A DNA stretch of 43,021 nt from Actinomycetota bacterium (GCA_035697485.1 DASSCU010000048.1:1-43021); one strand, 5' to 3'; numbered from the stretch's first letter, positions 1 to 8,868 are shown. Notes: generated by a model from the sequence alone, not told the origin. Translations and numbers: made by a program.

Positions 1-873
1 GATCGACAGTCGGAAGAGCACCTGCGCGAGATCGTCGTGGAGGTAACCGGCGATCTGCAACCGTTCGTCGGCCCGCTCCTCGGCCATCGCGTTCGAGAGC
101 GTCTTGAGCACCTGTTCACGCTCCTGCAGCTCCTTGTGCGCCTCCTCGAGCGCCTGCGACCTGAAGAACATCTGTCGAGCCAGCAGAGAAGGTCCGAGGA
201 AGGCTGGGATCGACCAGAAGCCAATCTCCTCCGCGAAGATGGCAACAATCAGGCCAAGTACGCCGAGCCCCAGATAGCTCACCAGGAACTCACTCAATCG
301 CCCGATGCGAAGTTCCCGTATGACGGCAACCGGGGGAAGGCCGACTCGAAGGCTTGTGAACACAGTCACCATCGCCGTGTTAACGCCGTAGTCAGCGATA
401 GCCGCCACCATCGCTGGAAGCACCAGCGTCCACTGGGGAACCGTGGCGATGCCATCGGGCGCCAACCAGTGGAAAACTCCACTCGCTGCCAAGACCGACA
501 AGCTCACCTGGCATCGATTGAACAACGCCCTCAGAAGGGTGACCTCATGTCGAAGCTCGCGTGGATCGAAGGACCCCAGCAGAGCCGTCACCGCAGCGGC
601 GGGCGGCGAGAAGAGAATCGCCACAGTCATGAGCAACGGGAACCCAAGACTGAGATGGACACCTCGCCAGGCTGGTACCGGGAGGAGTTCGACGACCGCA
701 ATCAGGGCGGCCCAGAGGAGTAGCTCGGCGTAGAAGGCAAGATCTCTGTCGATGACGGATTCGTCGGACGTCAGAAGGATCGCGAGGAGAACCAGCGTCG
801 GGATGATTACCGCTAGCTCGAAAGCAAGCAGCAAGCGTTCTCGCGCCTCCGCGGTCGAGCCCTGACTTGTCAC
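1..873 (-). CDS. Membrane sensor histidine kinase, C-terminus cut by window edge
   Basis: Reading leftward from a GTG at 871-873, the frame stays open for 291 codons to base 1. The N-terminal 230 residues hold several hydrophobic segments, followed by a charged helix and an H-box (GYLHDDLAQ, His279) of the HisKA_3 class. The ATP-binding domain lies outside the window. The protein is a clear paralog of the kinase at 1189-2613: both have a DPRE-x-RHE loop followed by an NR-x-Q-x-x-LSV stretch, and with both GTG starts the phosphoacceptor is residue 279 in each, which supports the starts. HisKA_3 kinases usually pair with NarL/LuxR-type regulators; none is in the window, so a partner may lie to the left. 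The signal is unknown. Codon use is less GC-biased than in the rest of the window. Confidence 0.85.
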   Translation of the reverse strand, partial: MTSQGSTAEARERLLLAFELAVIIPTLVLLAILLTSDESVIDRDLAFYAELLLWAALIAVVELLPVPAWRGVHLSLGFPLLMTVAILFSPPAAAVTALLGSFDPRELRHEVTLLRALFNRCQVSLSVLAASGVFHWLAPDGIATVPQWTLVLPAMVAAIADYGVNTAMVTVFTSLRVGLPPVAVIRELRIGRLSEFLVSYLGLGVLGLIVAIFAEEIGFWSIPAFLGPSLLARQMFFRSQALEEAHKELQEREQVLKTLSNAMAEERADERLQIAGYLHDDLAQVLFRLSI

Positions 874-965
874 GAGCTCATCTTCGGCTCTACAGACAGC
901 GTTTGAAAGTAGGACACCTGGAGGGGTCAGGCCCTACACCGAACGCAGTAGCTGTAACTCCCCGT

Positions 966-1008
966 TGTCCCCCATGTGGGTGTCCCCCGATAGTTTGCGT
1001 TGTCCCCC
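966..1008 (+). promoter_or_regulatory. Three direct TGTCCCCC repeats upstream of the small peptide gene
   Basis: TGTCCCCC occurs at 966-973, 981-988 and 1001-1008; the last two continue as TGTCCCCCGA and are exactly 20 bp apart, about two helical turns. A second short repeat, GGGGTCAG, is at 923-930 and 1013-1020. The copies sit between two divergent genes and around the likely promoter at 994-1023, as an operator array for a dimeric or cooperative regulator would. The bases are seen; the operator role is inferred. Confidence 0.5.
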
Positions 1009-1023
1009 GAATGGGGTCAGTAT
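994..1023 (+). promoter_or_regulatory. Possible promoter of the 27-residue peptide gene
   Basis: A TTTGCG -35-like box (994-999) and a CAGTAT -10-like box (1018-1023) are 18 bp apart. The third TGTCCCCC repeat lies between them and the second just upstream. The match to consensus is moderate, and TATCTG at 1021-1026 is an alternative -10. Confidence 0.35.
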
Positions 1024-1067
1024 CTGCAACGAGAGAACGACGTGACCGTCGGAGAAGGAGTGGGGCC

Positions 1068-1151
1068 ATGAAGATTGCTCGCCGAATCGCCATCGCTCTT
1101 GGTTCCCTGCTGGCGATCGCCCTCGCGGGCGGCGCACACTGGAAGGCCTGA
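1068..1151 (+). CDS. 27-residue membrane or secreted peptide
   Basis: This ATG-to-TGA frame of 27 codons is preceded by a good ribosome-binding site (GAAGGAG, 1054-1060, 7 nt before the ATG). The product starts MKIARR, continues with an uninterrupted hydrophobic stretch of Ile, Ala, Leu and Gly, and ends GGAHWKA. It looks like a signal peptide with a very short tail, or a single-span membrane peptide; cleavage after the GGA would free a four-residue tail. It has its own upstream repeats and a 9-bp terminator hairpin 24 nt after the stop, so it forms a complete small transcription unit. It lies between two paralogous membrane histidine kinases, which suggests, without proving, a signal or accessory peptide for them. 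No known family is recognised. Confidence 0.6.
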   Translation: MKIARRIAIALGSLLAIALAGGAHWKA

Positions 1152-1175
1152 GCAGGACCGAGACGCTTCACCAGC

Positions 1176-1202
1176 AGACCCCGGGATTTCATTCCGGGGT
1201 CT
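1176..1202 (+). terminator. Hairpin terminator after the small peptide gene
   Basis: AGACCCCGG (1176-1184) and CCGGGGTCT (1194-1202) form a perfect 9-bp stem with a 9-nt loop, followed by CTTGTTGT-like sequence. The hairpin overlaps the last codons of the convergent kinase (stop at 1189-1191), so the two genes share their 3' ends. The T-tract is weak. Confidence 0.65.
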
Positions 1203-2613
1203 TGTTGTATCCGGCCTTGGGAATCAGGGCGCGTATGGTCGTGCCCCCACCGAGACAGGTGTGCACATCAACGATTCCGTTTGTGGCCTTCACGCGCTCG
1301 GCGACGAGACTCAAGCCGAAGTGGGTTGAAGAGTCCACCTGACTCGGATCGAAACCAACTCCGTCATCGGAAACGGTCAGCTGCAGCCAGTCACTTTCCT
1401 CATCCAGAGTGACTGAGACCTTGGACGCCTGCGAATGTCTCGCAGCGTTGCTCATCGCCTCCCGGGCCAGCTGATAGCAGAGCAACTCAGCGGCCTCCGT
1501 TCCGGACACCTCGCCTATCTCTAGAGCGAATCTCGGGGAGCCAGCCGACTCAAGGCGTTGAGCGACAAGCCTGAGACTGCTGGCGAGACCTCCGGGACCT
1601 AGCTTCGCGCCACGAAGTCCTCTGACCACATCCCGGATGGCGGACTGAGCCATCTCCGTAGCGGTCAGAAGCTCCGGAAGATCTTCATCGAGACTTAGGA
1701 GTCGGCCAGAATCGAGGTCTTGACGAAGGACCTGCCCCATCAGATGGACCTTGAATAGGGGAGGGAGCACTTCATCGTGCAGCTCCCCGGCAAGCACCTG
1801 CCGCTCGTCACGCCGTTCGTTGGCAAGGGAGTCGGTGGCTTGCATGAGCGCCTTACTCTTCCGGTCTGAATCGCGTCGGAGCAGAAGCACCTGTCGACTC
1901 TGCTCGAACACACCCTTCGCAAGCGCCAACGGAACGACGAACGCCACAAACCCTCTCAGACCCATGCCGGCAGTAGCTTCAGCCAGAAGAACACTCATCA
2001 GCCCGTAGGACAGGTACATCAGAGCGAACAGGCGAGTCGATCCGAGCTGGAGCTGAGAGAGCGCAGTGGAGACTGAGACTCCAGTACGAACGGAGGTCAT
2101 CAAGGCCACGAGAACGTAGTTGATCGAAATGTCTGTAGCTAAGGCCAACAGGCCAGCCAGCAGCGAGCCTGGCCAGATTCCGAGCTGTCCCCCAACAGCC
2201 ATAAAGGCTAGGGATCCACCGATGACGCTCAGGGCCGTTTGACCGCGATTGCAGATCGCTCTCGATATGCTTATCTCGTGGCGCCACTCTCTAGGGTCGA
2301 CATACGACACCAGCGCGATGGCACCCCCAACCCCTGGACCAACCACCAGCCCCGCTGCCAACAGGACGGGCATATCTAGCGACAACGCAGTTGTGGAACC
2401 TGATCTGACTGAGAGCAGCCCAGCGAGGGCAGCAGCCGCCCCGAAGACAAGAAGCTCGGCCCACGAGACGGATCGATGTTCCGTCGCGAGTCCAATCAAG
2501 ACGGCTCCCACCGCGGATGAGAAGACCGTCCCGGCCAGTATGCGAAATCGCGTGGACTCTCGGTTGCCCCTAATGTCGACCTGAGCTCTGCGGATCGCTG
2601 CACCGTCGGACAC
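1189..2613 (-). CDS. Membrane sensor histidine kinase (HisKA_3 class)
   Basis: This is a complete kinase of 474 residues. The start is the GTG at 2611-2613, because a GGGGGAG ribosome-binding site lies 5 nt before it; the frame stays open further upstream but without such a site. About six hydrophobic segments fill residues 20-245. A linker helix leads to the H-box GELHDEVLPP (His279), then a HATPase domain with an N-box (REAMSNAARHS), a G1 box (DDGVGFDP) and a short G2 region (FGLSLVAERV). Instead of a periplasmic sensor domain the input appears to be the membrane region itself. It is a paralog of the truncated kinase at the left edge. The neighbouring OmpR-type regulator is divergent and has its own HisKA-class kinase, so this kinase is probably not its main partner. 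Confidence 0.9.
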   Translation of the reverse strand: MSDGAAIRRAQVDIRGNRESTRFRILAGTVFSSAVGAVLIGLATEHRSVSWAELLVFGAAAALAGLLSVRSGSTTALSLDMPVLLAAGLVVGPGVGGAIALVSYVDPREWRHEISISRAICNRGQTALSVIGGSLAFMAVGGQLGIWPGSLLAGLLALATDISINYVLVALMTSVRTGVSVSTALSQLQLGSTRLFALMYLSYGLMSVLLAEATAGMGLRGFVAFVVPLALAKGVFEQSRQVLLLRRDSDRKSKALMQATDSLANERRDERQVLAGELHDEVLPPLFKVHLMGQVLRQDLDSGRLLSLDEDLPELLTATEMAQSAIRDVVRGLRGAKLGPGGLASSLRLVAQRLESAGSPRFALEIGEVSGTEAAELLCYQLAREAMSNAARHSQASKVSVTLDEESDWLQLTVSDDGVGFDPSQVDSSTHFGLSLVAERVKATNGIVDVHTCLGGGTTIRALIPKAGYNKTPE

Positions 2614-2750: not shown

Positions 2751-3455
2751 ATGAAGCCCCGTGTGCTCGTCGTAGAGGACGAGACGAGCATCTCCGAGCC
2801 CCTCTCGGAGCATCTCTCGCGCGAAGGGTTCGACCCCGAGGTCGCCGGCACGATCGCCGAAGCGACCGCTGCCTACGAGGTCGGGGAACCCGACTTCCTG
2901 CTGCTCGACGTGATGCTTCCCGACGGGGACGGTCGAGATCTGTGCCGCGAGATCCGTCGCCGATCCGACGTGCCGATCATCATGCTCACGGCCCGCGGCG
3001 AGGAGGTCGACCGCATCGTGGGACTCGAGCTCGGCGCCGACGACTACGTCGTCAAACCGTTCAGCGCCGGGGAGCTCGTGGCACGCATGCGGGCGATCAT
3101 GCGTCGCAGCCGCGCCGGGTCGGACACCGCTTCCAAGTCGCCGATCGCGATCGGAGAGATCACGCTCGACCCGTCGTCCCGAACCGTGACGAAGGGCGCC
3201 GAGGCCGTGCAGCTCGCAGCCAAGGAGTTCGATCTGCTGCGGCTGCTGATGTCGCGGGCAGGCGAGGTCGTGCCGCGGGAGCAGATCATGGACGAGGTCT
3301 GGGACCCCCATTGGTTCGGACCCACGAAGACGCTCGACGTGCACATCTCATGGCTGCGGAAGAAGCTCGAGGATGATCCGAGCCACCCGCGGTACATCAC
3401 CACGAGCCGCGGGGTCGGCTTCCGCTTCGCCGCCCCTGCCGACATCACGGATTGA
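2751..3455 (+). CDS. OmpR/PhoB-family response regulator
   Basis: The 234-residue protein has a receiver domain (residues 1-120) with the acidic pair ED at 9-10, phosphoacceptor Asp53 in LLLDVMLPD, Thr80 and Lys102 in VKPF. A C-terminal winged-helix DNA-binding domain (about 130-230) ends in the usual TSRGVGFRF hairpin. It is the length normal for the family. An upstream in-frame ATG at 2682 exists, but the family N-terminus (MKPRVLVVEDE) and the -10 box 6 nt before 2751 favour this start. It is followed immediately by a HAMP/HisKA kinase, its likely partner, with the two reading frames almost touching. The regulon cannot be told from the sequence. Confidence 0.93.
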   Translation: MKPRVLVVEDETSISEPLSEHLSREGFDPEVAGTIAEATAAYEVGEPDFLLLDVMLPDGDGRDLCREIRRRSDVPIIMLTARGEEVDRIVGLELGADDYVVKPFSAGELVARMRAIMRRSRAGSDTASKSPIAIGEITLDPSSRTVTKGAEAVQLAAKEFDLLRLLMSRAGEVVPREQIMDEVWDPHWFGPTKTLDVHISWLRKKLEDDPSHPRYITTSRGVGFRFAAPADITD

Positions 3456-3465
3456 GGAGGCTCTT

Positions 3466-4938
3466 ACGAAGGTCCGTACGCGCCTCGTCATGGCCTTCGC
3501 CTACGTGTTGGTCACCGTGATCGTTGCACTCACCGTGCCCCTCGCCGTCAACCTTCGCGAACGTGCCGAGTCGGACCTGCTGGGGCAAGCCAAGGTCACC
3601 GCCCAGGCTCTCGCGGCGTCATTCGACTCGTCGTCGCTGGCGCCCGGCTCACGCGACCAGCTGACCCGCCAAGCGGAACGCTACTCGGAGCAGATCGACG
3701 GGCGGGTGCTCGTGATGGACGACGATGGCGTGGTCCTCGCCGACGCGAATCCCTTCCCCGTCCCTGCGGATTCGGCGGTCGGTGAGGACTACGCCACGGT
3801 GCAGCGTCCGGAAGTCGTGAGCGCGCTCGTCGACGGCGAACCGTCGGCCCTCGTGCGGACCAGCGACGAACTGGCGATCGACCTATTGCTGGCCTCAGCC
3901 CCCATCGTCGACGATCCCGATGGGAGGCCGGCGATCATCGGGGCGGTCCGCATCACGCTCGACGTGCAGCGCGTGAGCGACTCGGTCCGGCGCGTGACGG
4001 TCGGCGTGATCGTGATCGGGCTCGCCGGGCTGCTCGCGGGCATGCTGGTCGCCTTCGTGCTGGCCGGATCGCTCGCCCGGCCGCTGACGAAGCTCGCGGC
4101 CGCGGCGCGGAGCCTCGGCCGCGGCGACCTGTCGACCCGTGCCGGCGCGATCGGTGGACCCGACGAGGTACAGGAGCTCGCGGGCTCGTTCGACGAGATG
4201 GCCGACCGGGTCGAGCGCACGTTCCAGGCGCAGCGGTCGTTCGTCGCGAACGCGTCGCACCAGCTCCGCACCCCGCTCACCGGCATGAAGCTGCGGGTCG
4301 AGCGTGCGGCCGACGAGACCGGGGACCCGGAGCTGCGCACTCAGCTCGAGGCGGCCGACCGAGAGGTCGACCGCATGGCGGCCACCATCGATCGCATGCT
4401 CGAGATGGCCCACGAGGTCGAGGAGGGCGCGCCGACGGAGGCCGATGCCGGGGACGCCGCGCGCGCCGGCGCGGAGCGGTGGGTCGATCGCGCGGTCGAA
4501 CGTGGGGCCGAGGTCACGGCCGTCGTCCCCGGTCCGGCCCCCGTGCACGCGAACCCGACCGACCTCGATCAGATCATCGATAACCTGCTCGACAACGCCA
4601 CGGCGTACGCGCCCGGTGCGATCGAGGTCTCGGTGACGCCCGGTGCCAAGCGAACGGTGCTCGCGGTACGCGATCATGGCCCCGGCATCGCTCCTGACGA
4701 GCGCGAGGTCCTGACCGAGCGCTTCTCACGAGGCCGCGCTGCTCCCCCCGGGGGCTCGGGGCTCGGGCTCGCGATCGCCCGGGAGCTCGCGGAACGCTGG
4801 GGCGGATCCCTCGAGGTCGTCGCCCCGCCCGATGGGGGCACGCTGATCGAAGTCCGGTTGCGGCCTGCGCCGGAGCCGGTCCCGAGCACCGACCAGCCCG
4901 GTATGCGGCCCGAGCCCGGCGAGGCCAACGTCACGTGA
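3466..4938 (+). CDS. HAMP-domain sensor histidine kinase
   Basis: From the proposed start the protein has 490 residues: a first membrane segment (about 7-27), an extracytoplasmic sensor region (30-175), a second membrane segment (178-203), a HAMP domain (205-255), the H-box NASHQLRTPL with His265, an N-box around Asn376, the G1 box DHGPGIAP and the G2 box GGSGLGLAIA. The start is uncertain. GAGGAGG (3454-3460) stands 5 nt before an in-frame ACG at 3466 that would give the usual family N-terminus KVRTRLVMAF. The first in-frame ATG, at 3490, has no ribosome-binding site and cuts into the first membrane helix. It forms an operon with the regulator upstream and is coupled through a GTGA overlap to the DsbA-fold gene downstream. 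About 25 Pro/Glu-rich residues extend the C-terminus. Confidence 0.88.
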   Translation, partial: TKVRTRLVMAFAYVLVTVIVALTVPLAVNLRERAESDLLGQAKVTAQALAASFDSSSLAPGSRDQLTRQAERYSEQIDGRVLVMDDDGVVLADANPFPVPADSAVGEDYATVQRPEVVSALVDGEPSALVRTSDELAIDLLLASAPIVDDPDGRPAIIGAVRITLDVQRVSDSVRRVTVGVIVIGLAGLLAGMLVAFVLAGSLARPLTKLAAAARSLGRGDLSTRAGAIGGPDEVQELAGSFDEMADRVERTFQAQRSFVANASHQLRTPLTGMKLRVERAADETGDPELRTQLEAADREVDRMAATIDRMLEMAHEVEEGAPTEADAGDAARAGAERWVDRAVERGAEVTAVVPGPAPVHANPTDLDQIIDNLLDNATAYAPGAIEVSVTPGAKRTVLAVRDHGPGIAPDEREVLTERFSRGRAAPPGGSGLGLAIARELAERWGGSLEVVAPPDGGTLIEVRLRPAPEPVPSTDQPGMRPEPGEANVT

Positions 4939-7473: not shown

Positions 7474-8868
7474 TCACAGTGGAAGGGAAGCCTGGCCCGG
7501 GTGCGCGGGCTCGCCCGCGCGGAAAGGAGGGACACCCGGGCCAGGCGGCTTGTCCGACGGGACCTCGAGGATGGGGGCGGGGTAGCCGGTCGCGCGCAGC
7601 AGCTCGGGATCCCACCACGGGGCGAAGATCCACGGCGCCGGTACCTGGGCCAGCTCGCGCACGTACCGCCGCACGTACGCGCCGTCGGGGTCGAACCGCT
7701 CGGCCTGCCGCACCGGGTTGAACGAGCGAGACCGACGCGGGTCGGTGCCCGTGCCCGCCACCCATTGCCAACCCCCGGAGTTGTTCGCCGGATCGCCGTC
7801 GACGAGCCAGCGCATGAAGTGCTCGGCGCCGCGCTGCCACGGGATGCCGAGCCGCCGGGTCAGGAACGACGCCACCACCATGCGCGCGCGGTTGTGCATC
7901 CACCCTTCTCGGCGGAGCTGCCGCATGCCCGCGTCGACGAGCGGGATGCCCGTGCGGCCCAGCTTCCAGCACTCCACGAGGTACTCGCCGTGGTCCGGCA
8001 CCGACGGCACGTCGTCGGGAGGCTCACGGAAGTCCGTCCACGCGATCGCGGGGTCGCGTGCCAGCAGTTGGCCGTAGAAGTCACGCCAGGCCACCTGACG
8101 CACGAGTTCCTCGGCGCCGGGAACCTCGATCGCAGACGCGACCACCTCGTTCGCACTCACGTTGCCGAACCGCAGGTACGGCGACAGGCGCGAGGTCGCG
8201 TCGGCGGCGAGGTCGTTGCGCACCGCCGCGTAGCGCGATGCGCTGCCTGCAAGGTAGGTCCCGAGGTGCTTGCGCGCCGCGGTCTCGCCCCCCGGAGGCA
8301 GATCGATCGAGTCGGCGTGCACGGCGCCGGCGTCGGGCCGTCGACCGGGATCGATGTCCGATGGCGTCTCGATCATCCGAGGCGGAGCCAGGACGGCTCG
8401 ACGCGGCGCCTGGGCCCATGCGCGGTGGTAAGGCGTGAACACCGAGTACATGTCCTTGCCGGATGGGACCACCTCGCCCGGCTCGACCACCGCGTTGCCG
8501 GGATGGACCACGAGATCGACGCCGTGGGCCGCGAGGGCCTCCCGGAGGGCGCCCTCCCTGCGCTGTGCGGTGCGGCTGACGTCGGACGACAGGTGCACCG
8601 CCTGCGCCCCGCAGCCGCTCACGACGTCGAGCACCCGCGCGACGGGATCCCCGTCGCGCACGATCAGCCCCGACCCACGGCGGGCGAGCGACCGATCGAG
8701 ATCGACGAGGCTCTCCATCAGGAAACGCTGCCGGTTCGCGCTGCGCCCCAGCAGCCCCGGGTCCAACACGAAGAGCGGCACCACCGGCTCGCCGCAGCGG
8801 ACCGCCGCGTCGAGCGCCGGGTGGTCGTGCACGCGGAGATCGCGGGTGAACAGCACGACGGAGCTCAT
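7474..8868 (-). CDS. phr: Deoxyribodipyrimidine photolyase
   Basis: The 464-residue flavoprotein uses blue light to split UV-induced pyrimidine dimers. The N-terminal antenna-binding Rossmann domain starts VVLFTRDLRVHDHPAL. The C-terminal FAD-binding helical domain carries VAWRDFYGQLLA, MHNRARMVVASFL, DPANNSGGWQWVAGTG and the class I signature SFNPVRQAERFDP. The start at 8868 matches the family N-terminus and has a TACCGT box 6 nt upstream on its strand; the 20 extra in-frame codons further upstream are not conserved-looking. The last 25 or so residues are Pro/Gly-rich and are encoded by a large inverted repeat (7490-7546), so the natural C-terminus may have been extended by that element. CPD versus 6-4 specificity and cryptochrome function cannot be separated with certainty, but the tryptophan-rich CPD-type segment favours photolyase. 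Confidence 0.93.
   Translation of the reverse strand: MSSVVLFTRDLRVHDHPALDAAVRCGEPVVPLFVLDPGLLGRSANRQRFLMESLVDLDRSLARRGSGLIVRDGDPVARVLDVVSGCGAQAVHLSSDVSRTAQRREGALREALAAHGVDLVVHPGNAVVEPGEVVPSGKDMYSVFTPYHRAWAQAPRRAVLAPPRMIETPSDIDPGRRPDAGAVHADSIDLPPGGETAARKHLGTYLAGSASRYAAVRNDLAADATSRLSPYLRFGNVSANEVVASAIEVPGAEELVRQVAWRDFYGQLLARDPAIAWTDFREPPDDVPSVPDHGEYLVECWKLGRTGIPLVDAGMRQLRREGWMHNRARMVVASFLTRRLGIPWQRGAEHFMRWLVDGDPANNSGGWQWVAGTGTDPRRSRSFNPVRQAERFDPDGAYVRRYVRELAQVPAPWIFAPWWDPELLRATGYPAPILEVPSDKPPGPGVPPFRAGEPAHPGQASLPL
7490..7546. repeat. Large nested inverted repeat at the photolyase 3' end
   Basis: GCCTGGCCCGGGTG (7490-7503) and CACCCGGGCCAGGC (7533-7546) are perfect 14-bp arms; inside them GCGCGGGC/GCCCGCGC (7503-7510, 7513-7520) forms a second hairpin with a 2-nt loop. 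It lies between convergent genes and inside the last photolyase codons. On the minus strand it is followed by TTCCCTTCC, so it may be the terminator of the photolyase and, from the other side, of the DUF72 operon. Confidence 0.6.

Follow-up and report, generated by a model that had tools for sequence, protein, structure and literature searches.

The described systems closest to the locus analyzed here are MgrB-PhoQ, CbiN-CbiM, the RRNPP/RRNPPA pheromones (Phr, SHP, PapR, and NprX), and the AgrD-AgrC and ComX-ComP pairs. MgrB contacts PhoQ, a kinase with a periplasmic sensor domain, along the transmembrane (TM) helices and at the periplasmic interface (PMC10576120). The small membrane protein CbiN has a loop that lies over the pocket of CbiM (PMC7689651); it has two helices and, together with CbiM, forms the bipartite S unit of a cobalt ECF transporter. 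For RRNPP/RRNPPA systems, tandemly duplicated pheromones are known, and the propeptides measure 50 to 120 aa (PMC11343458). Their receptors, described for Firmicutes, are TPR proteins of the cytosol. In the AgrD-AgrC and ComX-ComP pairs, a peptide gene lies beside the gene of a multi-span kinase, and ComP is a HisKA_3 kinase, as are the kinases of the present locus.

The window, the whole 43,021-nt stretch of Actinomycetota DNA that was analyzed, is contig C48 of a 64-contig genome, and its position 1 is the contig end. A preliminary description had proposed two paralogous kinases flanking a self-contained gene for a 27-residue peptide, with the same phosphoacceptor position in both kinases. 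This arrangement was recovered (Table 1), with the peptide gene divergent from HK1 and convergent with HK2 and with the phosphoacceptor His at residue 279 of both, and the ribosome-binding site, upstream repeats (963-980 and 998-1015), and terminator mentioned there were all located. The remainder of HK1 was found at G000:C58:1-801, where an identical 47-codon overlap completes the kinase to 510 aa. The leftward extension had been suggested as a way to a response regulator, but neither the window nor G000:C58 nor any of eight relatives showed a recognizable one beside the kinase pair, and the gene after HK1 on G000:C58 lies on the opposite strand and is not regulator-like. An OmpR-type regulator and HisKA kinase pair at 2751-4938 was rejected as a partner because it forms a separate operon divergent from HK2. 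The synteny of this pair with HK2 is kept in relatives (L074 and L065), and its type is unrelated.

Table 1. Features of the peptide-kinase locus and of related loci (positions refer to the window unless a locus is named)
Feature	Position	Strand	Remarks
HK1: MASE9-type membrane sensor and start of HisKA_3	1-873	-	truncated by the contig end
Dyad-like element	929-952 (approximate)		consensus TACnGC...GC.GTAG; same alignment of loci as the next entry
Promoter/operator-like element	963-1015	+	TTGTCC (965-970), 18 nt, GATAGT (989-994); 13-locus alignment
Shine-Dalgarno sequence of the microprotein gene	1052-1060	+	AGAAGGAGT; strong Shine-Dalgarno retained in relatives
Microprotein gene, 27 codons	1068-1151	+	27-aa product MKIARRIAIALGSLLAIALAGGAHWKA
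Hairpin terminator of the microprotein gene, 12 bp	1176-1202	+	overlaps the 3' end of the convergent HK2 gene
HK2: membrane sensor, HisKA_3, and HATPase_c	1189-2613	-	paralog of HK1, 474 aa
Arrays of type B-then-A peptide pairs upstream of GGDEF-EAL genes	L144:3108-5071, L082:1356-1976, L084:7966-8583, L087:7255-7914		
Two tandem identical 23-codon copies upstream of MASE9-HD-GYP, family f8	L147:1021-1228, L154:1161-1346, L163		MKKFYRILMILGSLVGICATVRW and similar
XRE-HTH plus TPR genes with divergent 28-33-codon signal-peptide-like gene	L312-L326		families f1, f2, f4, and f5
XRE-TPR example	L134:6658-7929	-	peptide at 8118-8204, + strand

Several lines of evidence supported the small gene. AAGGAG lies 8 to 10 nt 5' of the ATG, and a good Shine-Dalgarno sequence was present in all the homologs found. 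Compared with the sister species, pS was 0.69 and pN was 0.12, variability at codon positions 1, 2, and 3 was 0.37, 0.22, and 0.585, and none of the 20 homologs compared carried a frame-breaking change. By these patterns of substitution, the peptide gene is under purifying selection. When 100 relatives were searched, the peptide turned up within the same genus, in most genomes of the family, and in family f4 of the order; in the latter two groups, it is encoded by homologous frames of 25 to 30 codons that have good ribosome-binding sites and adjoin orthologous kinases, usually in the same placement (HK1 divergent, HK2 convergent). Judged by its sequence record, the 27-codon frame is thus a genuine conserved gene, and the preliminary description was borne out both in this and in its expectation of a conserved small frame between such kinase pairs; the conservation beside kinases has one exception in the same genus, genome G001, where the peptide lies away from kinases. 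Members of the family have a basic N terminus and a single short hydrophobic helix, followed by Gly-Ala and a tail of aromatic and basic residues, with GGAHWKA as the form in the window. Near-invariant residues are Arg, Ser, Ala, Ala, and Gly-Gly-Ala, followed mostly by Trp and Lys/Arg. The Trp is not invariant, being replaced by Tyr, Phe, His, Met, or Ala in several orthologs. The small residues form a conserved helix face (S10, A13, A17, and A20 in aligned core numbering). Most members also have a small residue at a possible cleavage site of the A-x-A type, a feature that is not discriminating. No known family matched the peptide near any cut-off in Pfam, NCBIfam, PHROGs, or PADLOC, and the NCBIfam AgrD model gave no match.

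These features did not agree with the AgrC/ComD type of system to which the locus had been likened. At the kinase loci, no AgrB-like gene and no adjacent LytTR or NarL regulator was recognized; unlike AgrD-AgrC, the window-type peptides have no Cys or thiolactone, and the HisKA_3-class kinases have a different membrane domain. The variable Trp differs from ComX-ComP, and no ComQ-like neighbor was recognized by eye in the gene lists. The locus resembles RRNPP/RRNPPA systems in having a signal-peptide-like short open reading frame (ORF) with a short C-terminal tail beside a receptor gene, but the putative receptor is a membrane kinase and the peptide has 27 aa. Identity with AgrD/AgrC, ComX/ComP, or RRNPP was therefore rejected, each being at odds with the features tested.

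Upstream of the gene, the TTGTCC-N18-GATAGT element and the further dyad are kept in the family while neighboring bases are not, and the upstream repeats belong to this element. CCCCC..GGGG palindromes lie between the two boxes and downstream. A sigma-70 consensus scan of the region gave no match, and the promoter call rests on conservation. Because of this conserved promoter/operator-like element, the peptide gene is probably controlled on its own. The C-tract palindromes here and in relatives recall the operators of CsoR/RcnR-type regulators.

The membrane part of HK1 gave a weak match to MASE9 (19.9-20.3 bits against a Pfam gathering score of 24.3) and could be aligned to it across the whole domain. 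MASE9 (PF20972) was matched by 84 of 97 aligned sensors at an E value of ≤1, with scores of 26 to 57 bits for relatives in the order and HD-GYP forms; canonical HD-GYP forms exceeded the cut-off. Within the phylum, 86 of the 396 genomes sampled encoded such sensors, which also occur in Bacillota. In both Actinomycetota and Bacillota, members of the microprotein family were encoded directly upstream of genes for MASE9-type sensors, which were fused to four classes of output (HisKA_3 kinases, HisKA kinases, GGDEF-EAL, and HD-GYP). A profile search of the 396 genomes yielded weak matches, and these again proved to lie a short distance upstream of genes that combine MASE9 with HD-GYP. When the search started from MASE9, including MASE9-HD-GYP in named genomes, a similar small upstream gene was found in several Actinomycetota families, in Coriobacteriia, and in Bacillota (Clostridiaceae, Tissierellales, and Clostridiales). 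Since the same microprotein family also occurs beside GGDEF-EAL and HD-GYP proteins, the pairing, as far as gene neighborhoods can tell, is with the type of sensor domain and not with kinases as such. GGDEF-EAL loci carry between one and three peptide pairs upstream, each with a type B and then a type A peptide, and arrays reach 2 to 6 copies per sensor.

The pairing was also evident in a blind scan with fixed criteria. Among 136 MASE9-type genes that had not been gathered via the peptide, 41 had a candidate, a lower bound given that the set also counts Streptomyces genes and genes in second position in operons, compared with 3 of 72 HD-GYP genes without MASE9 (p = 2.5e-6). L292, one of the three control candidates, proved to be a true MASE9-linked peptide detected through an overlapping frame. 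Scan intervals shifted into or past the genes at the same loci gave candidates in 3% and 8.5%. BTAD/AAA-TPR regulators were rejected as a general partner class, as the peptide occurred only in G001 and the candidate rate was 1 of 30 AAA-TPR genes. The MASE9-HD-GYP genes of Streptomyces showed no microprotein, also with relaxed filters, from which it was deduced that MASE9 can work without the peptide.

Co-divergence was assessed by Mantel tests on small sets and crude distances. For the HD-GYP set (n = 33), peptide distances followed MASE9 when HD was held constant (r = 0.50, p = 0.0005) more closely than HD when MASE9 was held constant (r = 0.13, p = 0.06). For the window-type set (n = 11), they followed the HK1 sensor (r = 0.60, p = 0.0003), also given the HK1 catalytic part (r = 0.52, p = 0.001), and not the faster-diverging HK2 sensor (r = 0.13, p = 0.27). 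By these distances, it is the sensor domain, and not the output domain, with which the peptide co-diverges. Since peptide distances follow the HK1 sensor and not that of HK2, HK1 is the likely partner, which narrows the earlier proposal of one or both kinases.

Two explanations that give the product no role as a partner were weighed against these data. A regulatory leader ORF, whose translation controls the downstream gene while the product itself has no function, would account for the co-directional position close upstream of many HD-GYP genes. At the kinase loci, however, the gene is divergent from one kinase, convergent with the other, and has its own terminator, and amino acid conservation across phyla together with co-divergence with the sensor domain makes this explanation extremely unlikely. 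A type I toxin or membrane-acting bacteriocin, with kinases that sense the resulting membrane damage, is very unlikely. The peptides do resemble type I toxins in size, hydrophobicity, W/K ending, and tandem copies, but the fixed site upstream of one sensor-domain type across phyla and the co-divergence with that domain argue otherwise, as does the fact that no immunity, antitoxin, or export gene was noted and no PADLOC or PHROGs match was obtained.

The fold of the sensor was predicted with AlphaFold2 (pLDDT 94.4 for the HK1 sensor and 92.9 for a canonical MASE9 domain). In Foldseek searches of the PDB, S-components occupied the top 23 places for HK1 and the top 18 for canonical MASE9, with RibU, ThiT, BioY, FolT, and CbiM/NikM at the head of the lists. 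Probabilities reached 1.00 and TMt reached 0.71; E values were weak (0.01 or worse), while the ranking was unanimous. Weak sequence support came from ECF-ribofla_trS and FolT. MASE9 sensors, HK1 included, are thus predicted to adopt a six-helix fold like that of ECF-transporter S-components. They are fused to HK, GGDEF-EAL, or HD-GYP outputs rather than being stand-alone transporter parts that cooperate with EcfT and ATPases. S-components bind small ligands from outside, and for this reason either a short outer peptide tail or a vitamin-like molecule would be a natural ligand.

We hypothesized that the 27-aa product is the dedicated partner of this S-component-like receptor, a ligand presented outside the cell, and assign a probability of about 0.5 to this reading. 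The peptide would insert into the membrane via its basic N terminus and short hydrophobic helix, exposing the Gly-Ala/Trp/basic tail on the outer face, where the tail may stay anchored or may be released through signal peptidase cleavage after ALA. This tail, perhaps together with the helix, would then dock on the S-component-like domain of HK1 and set the activity of the HisKA_3 output, and with it the genes that this kinase presumably regulates. In relatives, the same input module would drive HisKA kinases, GGDEF-EAL, or HD-GYP enzymes.

The main alternative is that the peptide is a membrane subunit whose TM helix packs on the MASE9 domain and modulates it, the true ligand being a small molecule. 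Of the two roles raised in the preliminary description, ligand or membrane cofactor, both still lead. The subunit role is possible, though we consider it clearly short of even odds, and it has precedents in CbiN and MgrB, small membrane partners of an S-component and a kinase, respectively (PMC7689651, PMC10576120). The similarity to MgrB-PhoQ lies in a small single-helix membrane protein, presumably N-in/C-out in our case, that serves a sensor kinase. Differences are that PhoQ has a periplasmic sensor domain and not a MASE9/S-component fold (PMC10576120), that MgrB has 47 aa with no sequence relation found to the window peptide, and that the present family serves GGDEF-EAL and HD-GYP proteins as well as kinases. 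CbiN-CbiM is similar in pairing a small membrane protein with a protein of the S-component fold, and CbiM and NikM were among the Foldseek matches of the sensors, but CbiN has two helices, CbiM is part of a transporter and not a sensor, and no sequence match was obtained.

The choice between these two roles depends on evidence that points in both directions. The invariant Ser, Ala, Ala, and Gly-Gly-Ala face makes the helix at least as conserved as the tail, beyond the need of a cleaved signal peptide, and the tail is only 4 to 9 residues long and close to the membrane; both count against a ligand and suit a subunit. Trp-Lys/Arg at the membrane border, the predicted S-component-like fold, and the peptide gene's own promoter-like region, such as a regulated connector would have, are likewise consistent with a subunit. 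Further points against a ligand are tails that are alike across genera, unlike most quorum-sensing pheromones, and the lack of a linked protease or exporter. The weak Foldseek E values, the peptide-less Streptomyces genes, and the small Mantel sets also weigh against the ligand-receptor reading.

In favor of the ligand and against a subunit, G001 encodes a window-type peptide with an identical GGAHWKA tail (L062:8596-8682) divergent from a different, cytosolic regulator of the BTAD-AAA type, while no such kinases were found in this 81% complete assembly of a sister genome. A second G001 peptide, at L071:4862-4948, has a GGAHFKIV tail and is not next to a MASE9 gene. The arrays and identical duplicates suggest dosage, which also counts for a ligand, and the 2 to 6 copies per sensor are difficult to reconcile with a subunit.

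A third observation of this kind came from XRE-TPR regulators of the same genomes and order, which in 12 of 15 cases had a small gene in divergent orientation whose product mostly ends in a W-P tail (for example, ANWPHH, AGYPWPK, and APWPHCC). By analogy, these may constitute an RRNPP-like pheromone pair in Actinomycetota; the W-P peptides were compared with the MASE9 peptides as analogues and not as homologues. Their pairing with cytosolic proteins counts for the ligand and against the subunit. Together with the G001 arrangement, it could also mean that the window peptide is an RRNPP-type pheromone that acts on a cytosolic receptor elsewhere and lies near the kinases by chance, an explanation that is unlikely considering the strong statistical link and the co-divergence with MASE9 sensors.

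If the ligand reading is true, peptide signaling in Actinobacteria would extend to a new receptor fold. A class spanning both phyla, in which the S-component fold serves as receptor for a co-encoded 23-34-residue peptide and drives kinases and c-di-GMP enzymes, is proposed tentatively, at somewhat below even odds. In the open-access papers searched, no relevant mention of MASE9 or of small peptides with HD-GYP proteins or sensor kinases was found, nor was a description of the input, fold, or peptide partner of MASE9 sensors. With the family absent from the four databases searched, the locus keeps its standing as a candidate for an undescribed system. This suggests novelty in three respects, namely the peptide family, its association with a single type of sensor domain that has four outputs in two phyla, and the receptor fold resembling an S-component, although an earlier description elsewhere is possible. 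The pairing of peptide and receptor genes in many Actinobacteria and Firmicutes points to a widespread peptide-receptor signaling system that had escaped notice. For orphan kinases and c-di-GMP enzymes, the peptide partner and the predicted fold suggest an input that can be tested, and none of the genome-annotation libraries used contains a family model for this recurring gene of about 25 codons.

Two minor observations concern the MASE9-HD-GYP loci. Downstream of the MASE9-HD-GYP gene, there is often another sensor-HD gene that is weaker and has no peptide of its own (L136:2759-4066, L142:6805-8121, L255:3484-, and L277:3490-), which parallels the HK1/HK2 pair. Possible diverged microproteins with GVSWV or GISWT ends were seen near MASE9-HD-GYP genes of Actinocorallia and Planotetraspora (L178:2636-2722 and L180:2669-2785).
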